This document shows, piece after piece, positions 50,053-62,113 of a DNA stretch of 64,000 nucleotides. Position numbers and translations under genes: made by a program. Location: the NCBI RefSeq assembly GCF_001429285.1, contig NZ_LMJJ01000034.1:1159-65158 (forward strand), given 5' to 3'. How positions within the stretch are numbered: the first letter of the stretch is position 1; the number at the start of each line of letters is the position of its first letter. This DNA comes from Ensifer sp. Root278 (lineage in GTDB: Bacteria; Pseudomonadota; Alphaproteobacteria; Rhizobiales; Rhizobiaceae). Below the pieces are notes generated by a model, which made no database searches, was not told the DNA's origin, and was given only the letters and a program-made list of their open reading frames with translations.

Positions 50053-50102
50053 TTGAGACTCACTAGCGTAGAGCGTAAGGTCGCGATGTTCAATATTTGT
50101 TC
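50053..50102 (+). promoter_or_regulatory. dinB promoter with LexA box
   Basis: TTGAGA (50053-50058), a 17-base spacer and TAAGGT (50076-50081) form a plausible promoter. The LexA box GTTC-AATATTT-GTTC (50088-50102) follows at about the transcription start, five bases before the dinB ATG. It matches the alphaproteobacterial GTTC-N7-GTTC consensus exactly. Confidence 0.75.
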
Positions 50103-52852: not shown

Positions 52853-56350
<3,498 letters not shown>

Positions 56351-56492
56351 TATTCGCACCCTGATTCCTGTCTGGTCGGCAGGATATCCCGTTTATCACC
56401 CGACATGTCCAGTTTCACCTGACACGTCGTCCCCCTTATTCAATCCAGGGGGCGCATTTCGGGAGGTGCTTGAGAGGAAATATCGACGCTCC

Positions 56493-56579
56493 TCAGAGGC
56501 CGAGCGCGATGAAAGAGATGCTTGCGATGAACAGGCTCATCGAAGCGAAGGCGGCGAGGTCACGAACAAAATCAGTCAT
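56493..56579 (-). CDS. SOS-controlled 28-aa membrane peptide
   Basis: A tiny gene not otherwise listed. The ATG at 56579 is preceded by AAGGAG (56587-56592) with a perfect 7-base spacer. The 28 codons encode a charged N-terminus MTDFVRDLAAF and a hydrophobic helix from about residue 9 to 28 ending ALGL, so a single-pass inner-membrane peptide is expected. A LexA box lies inside its promoter spacer at 56613-56627. SidA of Caulobacter, a 29-aa SOS-induced membrane peptide that blocks division, has the same size, topology and control. Homology is not shown; the role is inferred. Confidence 0.68.
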   Translation of the reverse strand: MTDFVRDLAAFASMSLFIASISFIALGL

Positions 56580-56607
56580 AACATGGCTCCTTTTCCGTTA
56601 TGTTTTT

Positions 56608-56636
56608 ACTTTGTTCTATTTTTGTTCACGCGTCAA
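56608..56636 (-). promoter_or_regulatory. LexA box within promoter of the 28-aa peptide gene
   Basis: On the minus strand TTGACG (56631-56636) and CAAAGT (56608-56613) are 17 bases apart. The box GAAC-AAAAATA-GAAC (56613-56627) fills the spacer. LexA bound here would block RNA polymerase. The leader would be about 20 bases, placing the Shine-Dalgarno at 56587-56592 correctly. A CtrA-like TTAACCAT lies further upstream (56662-56669). Confidence 0.72.
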
Positions 56637-56764
56637 GCCGAGCACAGACGTTCTGTTGACGATGGTTAACACGGCAGTCGAATGCAGGTTAACTGCCAGG
56701 AAGCCGCTTGAGGAAAGCGCCGCGCCCGCATATCAAGAGGAACAACCAAGCGGAGCGTTCCGAC

Positions 56765-57337
56765 ATGCATGCACGCCTGATTCTGCCATTGCTGTTTCTG
56801 GTTCCGGCCGTCGCCTCCGCGGCCGAAACGATCGACCCTGCCCGCATCGTCTCCGCGGCGACCGGCGACTGGAACAAGGACGGTGACGCGGACCTCGCCC
56901 TGATCGTGCGCCCCGCAGATGGAAGCGACGATGACAACGGTGTCTATCTCTATCTGACCGGTGAGAATGGCGCTCTTGAGCTGAAGGCGGCGATCCCGAA
57001 CAAGATTTGGGGCGACTTTGACTTTGCCGGACAGGCGCCGTGGGTCGAGGCGCTGCCGAGCGGTTCTTTGCTCATCTCCAGCCACAACGATTCCATCGGA
57101 CGTGACCGCTGGGAACAGAAACTGACGGTCGCCTACCGCAATTTCGAGTTCGTGGTCGCCGGCTATACCTACTCATCCTACGATACACTCGATCTAGACA
57201 ACACGTTGAAGTGCGACCTCAACGTTCTGACAGGCAAGGGCAAATCCAACGACAAGGCCATAGCCACCAAGGGCGAACTCGTCCTGCTCAAGGACTGGAA
57301 CGACGATCGCGGCCAGAAGGCTTGCGGCGTTCAGTAA
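56765..57337 (+). CDS. Exported protein with FG-GAP/EF-hand-like motif
   Basis: A 190-aa protein. The ATG at 56765 starts a signal peptide (about 1-19, ending ASA). The mature part begins with GDWNKDGDADLALIV, an FG-GAP/VCBS-like calcium-binding loop, and has further beta segments such as NGVYLYLTG. Two cysteines (near 160 and the C-terminus) may pair. The role is unknown; calcium binding is inferred from the loop. It is divergent from the 28-aa gene. Confidence 0.72.
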   Translation: MHARLILPLLFLVPAVASAAETIDPARIVSAATGDWNKDGDADLALIVRPADGSDDDNGVYLYLTGENGALELKAAIPNKIWGDFDFAGQAPWVEALPSGSLLISSHNDSIGRDRWEQKLTVAYRNFEFVVAGYTYSSYDTLDLDNTLKCDLNVLTGKGKSNDKAIATKGELVLLKDWNDDRGQKACGVQ

Positions 57338-57347
57338 TCAGGTGATT

Positions 57348-57362
57348 GTTCTCTATTTGTTC
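57348..57362 (+). promoter_or_regulatory. LexA box upstream of the DUF5680 gene
   Basis: GTTC-TCTATTT-GTTC fits the alphaproteobacterial LexA consensus exactly and lies 54 bases before the DUF5680 start. Its AT-rich spacer resembles those of the two other boxes in the window (TxTTT pattern before the second GTTC). Confidence 0.68.
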
Positions 57363-57416
57363 TTTACAGCCAACACGGACCACGGCATCCTCGGCCAGAA
57401 CATATGAGGAACCCAC

Positions 57417-57884
57417 ATGGCCGCGCTCGAACAACTGAAGGACTTTATCGTCGAAGCCAAATCGAAAACCTATGTCGGCGGCGGCGAGCCGCGGCCTTCC
57501 TCTCGCCAAGGCTCCCATGACATCGGCTACGAAACGGGCAGTTGGCGCTATCTCGACAGCTATTTCGGCGGAACCGATTTTGCAGGACAGGAAACAGTCT
57601 GGCAGGATGGCGAACCGCGCTGGGCGATGAACTACTTCGGCCGGATTATGCGCCCCGAGCTCATAACTGGAGAGAAGGCAGGCCTGGTAATCAAGGCTGC
57701 CCTACAGGCGATGTATCGTGAGAAGCGGCACTTCCTCGGCGGCATGGAGTTTCGGCATGCGCATGGCTACTACATCGATAGCAGCCGCGGCGACACCGAA
57801 CATTTTTCCGGTCATGAGGTCATCTTCGTCGATGGCGAGGAAGCTTACGAACTCGACTACCGCGGCGGCCTGATCCGGCGTTAG
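57417..57884 (+). CDS. DUF5680 protein, probably damage-inducible
   Basis: A 155-aa soluble protein matching DUF5680: LKDFIVEAKSKTYVGGG, SHDIGYETGSWRYLDSYFGGTDFAGQE, VWQDGEPRWAMNYFGR and a C-terminal YELDYRGGLI. The domain is also found fused to helix-turn-helix regulators in Firmicutes; here it stands alone. AGGAACCCAC precedes the ATG. The LexA box at 57348-57362 suggests SOS induction. Function unknown. Confidence 0.82.
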   Translation: MAALEQLKDFIVEAKSKTYVGGGEPRPSSRQGSHDIGYETGSWRYLDSYFGGTDFAGQETVWQDGEPRWAMNYFGRIMRPELITGEKAGLVIKAALQAMYREKRHFLGGMEFRHAHGYYIDSSRGDTEHFSGHEVIFVDGEEAYELDYRGGLIRR

Positions 57885-61381: not shown

Positions 61382-62113
61382 GACGGGTTCCAGAACTTGA
61401 TGAACGTCGCACTATCGGCGGATTCGGGCGAAATGACGTTGAGCTCGGGTGCCTTCTTCGCCGGTAGACTGGCAAGGGCGACCGTTGCTTCTCGGGGTCG
61501 AGCTCTCCATTATCCATCGCCGGCAAAGCCAACGTGAACCTTTATGAGCCCTGCGTTCATAGCTGCTTCGCAGGCGGAAGAAAACCCTACTCTCAGGCCA
61601 TCGCCGGAAAGATCGGAGCCACTGATTTTGAGGGGAAAGACCGGAAAAGCCTGCGTCAAAAGAGCACGCTAGTAACAAGACTGCGACAGGAGTTGTCAAC
61701 GGGAATATTTTACCCAACTGTCGCAAAAATGCAAAAAAACAGGATGACACAGCTTAATGTTTGGGCTAATTTCGGCTCACAAAACAGGCATGAAGACTAA
61801 ATTCTTGCCGACTTTCGCGGTCAAGTCTTGGGAGGATAAGATCTTAGGCGCGCTTCGTCGCTGCCGCCGGAAACGGATTAGGATCACGCGAAACTTGAAA
61901 AACAAGGCTTTTAGCCTTGTTTTTTTTTGCTTTTCTCGCCCCGTCGCGAGCACGAAGCAGATGTAAAAATTGAACTATGTCAATTCGGCGGCGGTCAACC
62001 CTGCAATTGCGCTGGTTCCACCCACAGCATCGCGCGCGGCGTCATCATGACGCAGAAATCAAGCACCCGGCAGCCTTGCGGTTCGGCTCAGCCCATCCGC
62101 CTTGCCGATATTC
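61382..62113. other. Long AT-richer region upstream of proS
   Basis: 732 bases without a supported gene. A minus-strand TTGACA (61694-61699) may be the -35 of the proS operon but its -10 is weak. TGCGAC and AGTTG (61682-61695) pair with CAACT and GTCGCA (61715-61725). The strong terminator at 61901-61928 separates this region from the DUF1467 operon. A 69-codon frame at 61757 has no ribosome binding site. Confidence 0.45.
61901..61928. terminator. Bidirectional intrinsic terminator
   Basis: AACAAGGC (61901-61908) pairs with GCCTTGTT (61914-61921) around TTTTA. T-runs follow on both strands: seven T on the plus strand, TTTC on the minus. On the minus strand it ends the rnj-mce-DUF1467 transcript. 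Confidence 0.85.

Follow-up and report, generated by a model that had tools for sequence, protein, structure and literature searches.

Among the small proteins that stop cell division after DNA damage, SidA of Caulobacter is described as an inner-membrane protein of 29 aa, induced by SOS and interacting with FtsW (PMC4211646), in a study where LexA sites are matches to GTTCN7GTTC in seven of the eight positions. The sidA gene is given as CCNA_02004 (PMC11034885) and dnaE of C. crescentus as CC1926 (PMC1839093), and the latter is also listed as reported to be SOS-regulated (PMC3323433). Low-confidence AlphaFold models put SidA, together with YneA, SosA and ChiZ, on transmembrane segment 7 (TM7) of FtsW (PMC13396833). 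In rhizobia, Ribo-seq detected in Sinorhizobium meliloti 2011 a translated small open reading frame (ORF), sORF25, in the 5'-untranslated region (5'-UTR) of dnaE1; upstream-ORF (uORF) roles were suggested for some of the 5'-UTR sORFs, and the one preceding dnaE1 was singled out (Hadjeras et al. 2023, PMC10117765). Here we describe a 28-codon ORF located between lolD and dnaE1 on the minus strand of a 64,000-nucleotide stretch of Ensifer sp. Root278 (contig NZ_LMJJ01000034.1), hereafter the window; for one stretch of it, the closest plasmids are those of Ensifer adhaerens, at 88.9%. With a probability of roughly three in four, and judging from sequence comparison, we consider it the Sinorhizobium/Ensifer orthologue of Caulobacter SidA.

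The original prediction had proposed at this place an SOS-controlled, possibly SidA-like membrane peptide, and the elements it described are present in the window (Table 1): the frame with AAGGAG at the right distance from its ATG, a short charged N-terminus followed by one hydrophobic stretch, and a perfect LexA box, which recurs upstream of the ORFs of relatives. The membrane location of the peptide is predicted from hydropathy only. The promoter-like hexamers would set the transcription start near 56601, with a leader of about 22 nt; this TTGACG/CAAAGT pair was not reported by a consensus promoter scan of 56200-56900. By eye, TTGAC ahead of the LexA box is seen again in many relatives, as are purine-rich stretches ahead of the ORF. 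No terminator-like site was detected by a scan of the same interval, the gap between the peptide ORF and dnaE1 included, so that co-transcription of both is possible. Searches of the peptide against Pfam and NCBIfam gave no match even at E=10, and Rfam gave none at the gathering threshold at its locus.

Taken by itself, the LexA box could be a chance occurrence, since the window contains 7 copies of the motif where shuffles lead one to expect 2.1 (7 was reached by 1 of 100 shuffles). The lexA gene of this genome carries the same motif, GAACACATATGGAAC, 49 nt ahead of its ATG, and another box (50088-50102) stands just ahead of a dinB-like ORF in the window (dinB was identified by eye), which indicates that a GTTCN7GTTC-type motif is the one in use. 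These two boxes and the recurrence of box, spacing, Shine-Dalgarno sequence and ORF across the family and the order argue that the conjunction is not fortuitous.

Every one of the 16 genus genomes contains a match to the peptide; at E<=10 the overall figure is 32 of 61 genomes, the weakest of these matches being chance. At E<=0.01 a profile (A4), which itself includes rows of this bacterial family, matched 83 of the 101 genomes of that family, which nearly all belong to different genera; 7 of the 18 genomes without a match are <=2.0 Mb. Ten family genomes had been missed by the first peptide search: five hold a diverged copy behind a perfect box and before dnaE1 (G016, G019, G025, G035 and G036; in G019 the copy lies ~80-90 nt behind the box), two a relocated one, and in three (G020, G021 and G033) no peptide copy was seen. 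At the level of the class, another profile (A2) gave 31 matches at E<=0.1 in 385 genomes, mostly pieces of long frames. Within the genus, 10 of the 28 codons show synonymous variation only, 5 a conservative change and 13 are invariant, and the ORF differs from that of the window at 13 of 84 positions at most, against up to 42 differences in the 100 nt upstream, a figure that the ungapped comparison inflates where indels occur. A frame less conserved than its flanks, named beforehand as a ground for abandoning the prediction, was thus not what these genomes contain. Judged from these patterns, the amino-acid sequence of the peptide is under selection. As a separate observation, codons 3-11 (56547-56573, minus strand) do not vary in the genus, even synonymously, and many later codons do; this may be due to chance or to a constraint at the start of translation.

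We also examined how closely the LexA box follows the peptide. The peptides were gathered by sequence first and their upstream regions inspected only afterwards. Among 84 loci with an ORF of the peptide family (from 133 scanned; 68 distinct peptides), which take in most of the profile-building peptides and many close relatives, 69 have a perfect box <=90 nt upstream, 11 a one-mismatch box and 4 neither, compared with 11 perfect and 30 one-mismatch boxes in 1451 control windows of the same loci. Perfect boxes lie a median of 33 nt from the start. The A4 search added 26 locus identifiers, some of them places already included before, with 23 perfect boxes, 2 without any and 1 lacking an ORF in the size range. 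As far as sequence goes, transcription of the peptide would be repressed by LexA.

The relation to SidA comes from the region preceding dnaE1 in Caulobacterales. A 29-aa ORF occupies this slot in Caulobacter sp. BK020 and C. hibisci (L263, L265) and in Phenylobacterium sp. Root1290 (L264). Both Caulobacter ORFs are preceded by a pair of LexA boxes with one mismatch each, and that of Phenylobacterium by a pair of which one is perfect and the other has a single mismatch. As recN is both CC1983 and CCNA_02062, the two numberings are offset by 79, which brings dnaE to ~CCNA_02005, within about one gene of sidA. By its size, place, boxes and locus number, we take the Caulobacter 29-aa ORF as SidA. 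A profile of 26 non-Caulobacterales peptides scored 19.5, 14.8 and 18.6 bits on the ORFs of these three genomes, and for each of them none of 2000 full and none of 5000 block shuffles reached such scores. Among 74 natural hydrophobic ORFs, 2 were true members and the remaining 72 scored <=2.4. Residues common to the window peptide and the Caulobacter ORF are R6, D/E7, A10, F/L11, S13 and F17. Homology to SidA is supported by the slot ahead of dnaE1, which is common to Rhizobiales and Caulobacterales, by the LexA boxes, by the size and by the profile match; both peptides are very small (28 and 29 aa) with one hydrophobic stretch, their positions are orthologous, and the sequence relation (14.8-19.5 bits) depends on the Caulobacter ORF being SidA. 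In this sense the SidA-like reading of the original prediction is supported, with division inhibition as the putative function of the peptide by analogy.

A scan for perfect boxes in one Caulobacter genome found no SidA-like ORF beside them (13 of its 43 places had no locus, and ORFs were listed for 3 of these); it missed the 29-aa ORF because the two boxes before dnaE1 have one mismatch each. In the same genome, a 51-aa hydrophobic ORF lies beside a G+C-rich motif (L183).

Translation of the rhizobial ORF may already have been detected. In S. meliloti Ak57, the gap between lolD and dnaE contains MADFVRDLAAFASMSLFIVSISVIALGL, a peptide 89% identical to that of the window, and two LexA boxes; the gene table of this strain, which is incomplete, lists no gene for it, and among sense ORFs >=20 aa in the gap it is the sole ATG-started one with a Shine-Dalgarno pattern. 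According to the original prediction, the peptide would be a new SOS checkpoint effector in rhizobia. As a translated ORF it would have been described before, if it is the sORF25 of PMC10117765. Regarding this strain, the record CP090106.1, titled as its plasmid pSymB, has 3.72 Mb with dnaE and a proline--tRNA ligase gene, and looks like a mislabelled chromosome.

Several points weigh against the identification as a rhizobial SidA. Identity between the window peptide and the Caulobacter 29-aa ORF is only 21-25% in alignment, and the latter is only presumed to be SidA, from its size, place, boxes and locus number. A whole-genome search with A2 in 9 Caulobacteraceae genomes, including the three with the 29-aa ORF, gave no convincing match, and the candidates of Asticcacaulis, Oceanicaulis and Aquisalinus are weak, since 15, 138 and 438 shuffles out of 2000, respectively, did as well. 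The equation with sORF25 is no more than probable. Division inhibition by the rhizobial peptide is proposed by analogy with Caulobacter, and the pattern of conservation is compatible with another membrane partner too.

If the peptide acts as a SidA, the following sequence of events may be proposed. DNA damage would lead RecA to trigger LexA cleavage, which would free the promoter, the LexA box being its spacer; the 28-aa peptide would then be translated from its ~22-nt leader with a strong Shine-Dalgarno sequence and enter the inner membrane as one helix. Conservation is highest at D7, A9/A10, F11, S13, F17 and W/I24, which tend to one face of the helix, with a helical periodicity of conservation of p=0.014. 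Such a face (D7, A10, F11, S13/M14, F17, S20 and I/W24) could dock on the divisome, most likely on FtsW, holding FtsW/FtsI/FtsN inactive, so that cells would elongate undivided until repair is complete. Read-through may raise the dnaE1 polymerase at the same time.

A peptide of the SidA family with a different envelope target in rhizobia, such as FtsI, FtsN or a factor of polar growth, is conceivable since Rhizobiales grow from the pole. C-termini and position 24 (W or I) differ between lineages, and the second inhibitor of Caulobacter, DidA, is described as using FtsN; however, the core motif is common to the lineages, which suggests one target. We regard a change of target as unlikely, though it is the likeliest of the alternatives.

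The neighborhood of dnaE1 raises another explanation, in which the ORF is a leader peptide or uORF regulating dnaE1 and the LexA box is there to induce the polymerase. In 51 of 57 loci found by sequence search, dnaE1 follows the ORF (two places are counted twice, and L028 and L030 were excluded beforehand), and both the uORF role raised for sORF25 and the listing of C. crescentus dnaE as SOS-regulated would fit. A sample blind to the peptide took, for 30 named genomes (30 of 80 loci) and for 29 of 38 other genomes of the class, the regions upstream of dnaE1; two of the class loci (L282 and L304) were dropped, as their contigs end just upstream of dnaE1, leaving 57 alphaproteobacterial loci. 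A box together with a small hydrophobic ORF was present in 24 of them (20 named, 4 class), a box only in 1 (L244), an ORF only in 5 and neither in 27 (5 named, 22 class), a co-occurrence with a Fisher p of 4e-10. Four of the five ORF-only loci (L263, L265, L266 and L269) have one-mismatch boxes; the fifth, L301, is unrelated by eye.

Loci where both genes are parted weigh most here. In one genus (g48), all four genomes examined retain a LexA box with the peptide but have other genes downstream, and a homology search that recovered two positive controls found no dnaE1 within ~11 kb downstream (L271-L275 were empty). Their dnaE1 sits on another contig than the peptide, with no perfect box and no ORF of the peptide family in 1.45 kb upstream. 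Two further genomes (G022 and G030) likewise keep box and peptide elsewhere, and their dnaE1 lacks both. Since the box stays with the peptide where the two are parted in g48, the peptide and not dnaE1 would be the conserved SOS target. In addition, the amino-acid sequence is selected, the folding of the leader is ordinary (z 0.63) and Caulobacter SidA works as a protein. In these six genomes, the tie to the downstream gene expected of a dnaE1 leader peptide is absent; we reject this role, mainly by the g48 genomes, and give it little credence. The tracking of the peptide by the box also offers an explanation for the reports of dnaE as SOS-regulated in C. crescentus.

Two loci present a longer frame. 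In L244 (Pleomorphomonas, before dnaE1) the family peptide forms the C-terminal end of a 119-aa frame with the box near the frame start, and in L028 that of a 204-aa frame (between stops) with the box inside. In both, a perfect LexA box lies roughly 250-300 nt upstream of the peptide. They are perhaps extended SidA proteins with a cytoplasmic part.

Another alternative is a membrane-depolarising toxin of the TisB/DinQ type, induced by SOS and slowing growth rather than division. TisB is similar in size to the 28-aa peptide, and both E. coli toxins are described as SOS-controlled small membrane peptides. Against this stand the presumably short leader (~22 nt), its ordinary RNA structure and the lack of an Rfam match at the locus; no type I toxin-antitoxin layout was seen, although no search aimed at an antisense RNA was made. 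Orthology favours SidA, and the tendency of conserved residues to fall on one side of the helix, D7 and F17 being almost invariable, would fit docking on a partner. A type I toxin is disfavoured, and we hold it to be improbable. Finally, a meaningless ORF lying by accident beside a LexA box that serves something else, in a window where about 2 motifs per 64 kb are expected by chance, is refuted by the conservation of frame, spacing and box in the family and the order (16/16 genus and 83/101 family genomes) and has practically no likelihood left.

Homologues of the peptide are also found in phages. Rhizobium phages V1VFA-S, B1VFA and RHph_X66 (~120 kb) and two IMG/VR contigs (L314 and L315) have a gene for a protein of 42 aa, of the MNNDRVTLKDIARDGAAFLSMSLFIIAISIACVAMKPVVLPV type, with the motif of the SidA family and 23.4 bits on the family profile. 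The relation rests on motif and profile score, as the direct search that found the protein gave E=5, and none of the five loci has a perfect LexA box in the 300 nt upstream. From its sequence, it may be a phage-borne division inhibitor. Besides, a second copy of the family, with no LexA box, is present in at least five genomes of rhizobia (Table 1), and 4 of 5 of these copies start with MRDL or MRDF. That of G023 adjoins XRE-regulator and DUF5131-like genes (identified by eye), and is thus possibly on a mobile element.

Table 1. Location of the peptide gene, its presumed control elements, dnaE1 and further members of the peptide family (window positions unless an accession or contig is given).
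Feature	Location	Strand	Remarks
28-aa ORF, candidate sidA orthologue, MTDFVRDLAAFASMSLFIASISFIALGL	56493..56579	-	Short charged N-terminus, single hydrophobic stretch
Shine-Dalgarno sequence AAGGAG	56587..56592	-	ATG 7 nt further on
Weak -10-like CAAAGT	56608..56613	-	Putative, from sequence only
LexA box GAACAAAAATAGAAC (other strand GTTCN7GTTC)	56613..56627	-	Perfect; 33 nt to ATG; within the presumed promoter spacer
-35-like TTGACG	56631..56636	-	Putative, from sequence; 17 nt to CAAAGT
dnaE1, replicative DNA polymerase III alpha, 1165 aa	52853..56350	-	142 nt downstream of the peptide stop
Phage 42-aa ORF	MT778838.1 22898-23026; MT770738.1 41552-41680; MW960030.1 5770-5898		
Second copies	G023:C37 (L275, L333); G031:C27 (L361); G781:C1 (L363); G798:C17 (L369); G772:C16 (L370)		

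Two other elements lie near the peptide in the window. A DUF5680 gene (PF18931, 87.9 bits; 57417-57884, plus strand) is closely preceded by two LexA boxes (57348-57362 and 57398-57412), and at least one perfect box stands at that place in 15 of 16 loci of the genus and 3 of 3 of another genus; this neighbour would seem to be another SOS gene, so far uncharacterised. An ar9 sRNA (RF02343, 135.5 bits) is found nearby at 61779-61928 (plus strand).

On balance we favour a wider reading in which SidA is an old alphaproteobacterial SOS checkpoint gene placed before dnaE1 and prone to be missed by annotation, the LexA control attributed to 'dnaE' is really that of sidA, and Rhizobium phages took the peptide up. 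If so, the uptake by phages would plausibly serve to stop host division. In the titles and abstract openings of the literature searched, no SOS division inhibitor is named for Rhizobiales, nor did that literature, whose scope did not extend to the original 2011 SidA paper, contain a report of SidA in this order. For the arrest of division that follows DNA damage in Rhizobiales, the peptide provides a candidate gene in most of the family genomes tested, which comes with a promoter and a partner hypothesis (FtsW) in bacteria of polar growth. A checkpoint peptide would also replace the replicative polymerase as the reported SOS target, and the natural variants, phage ones included, may help to map the way in which one helix might switch FtsW off.

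Compared with known systems, the peptide, presumed to be a small SOS-controlled membrane peptide, resembles TisB and DinQ of E. coli in this respect; these are described, however, as toxins with antisense RNA partners (istR-1 and agrA/agrB, respectively), a layout not seen here. Its presumed place in the dnaE1 5'-UTR is that of sORF25 of S. meliloti 2011, a small translated ORF (PMC10117765), but the main text of that paper has no occurrence of LexA or SOS and reads the ORF as a possible uORF. DidA of Caulobacter is reported as another small inhibitor of division that has a single helix and responds to DNA damage, although it has 71 aa, is induced by DriD rather than LexA and binds FtsN. YneA, SosA and ChiZ from Gram-positives are membrane proteins that likewise inhibit division, at a late stage and after induction by SOS or damage; a LysM domain is present in ChiZ and an extended helix in SosA, and the models put SidA on the other side of TM7 (PMC13396833). 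With respect to C. crescentus SidA itself, for which alone division block and FtsW binding are proven, the comparison was made through its close relatives C. sp. BK020 and C. hibisci: the two Caulobacter loci have two one-mismatch boxes against one perfect here, and identity is low (21-25%), while both share a very similar length (29 and 28 aa), one hydrophobic stretch, upstream LexA boxes and the place before dnaE1.
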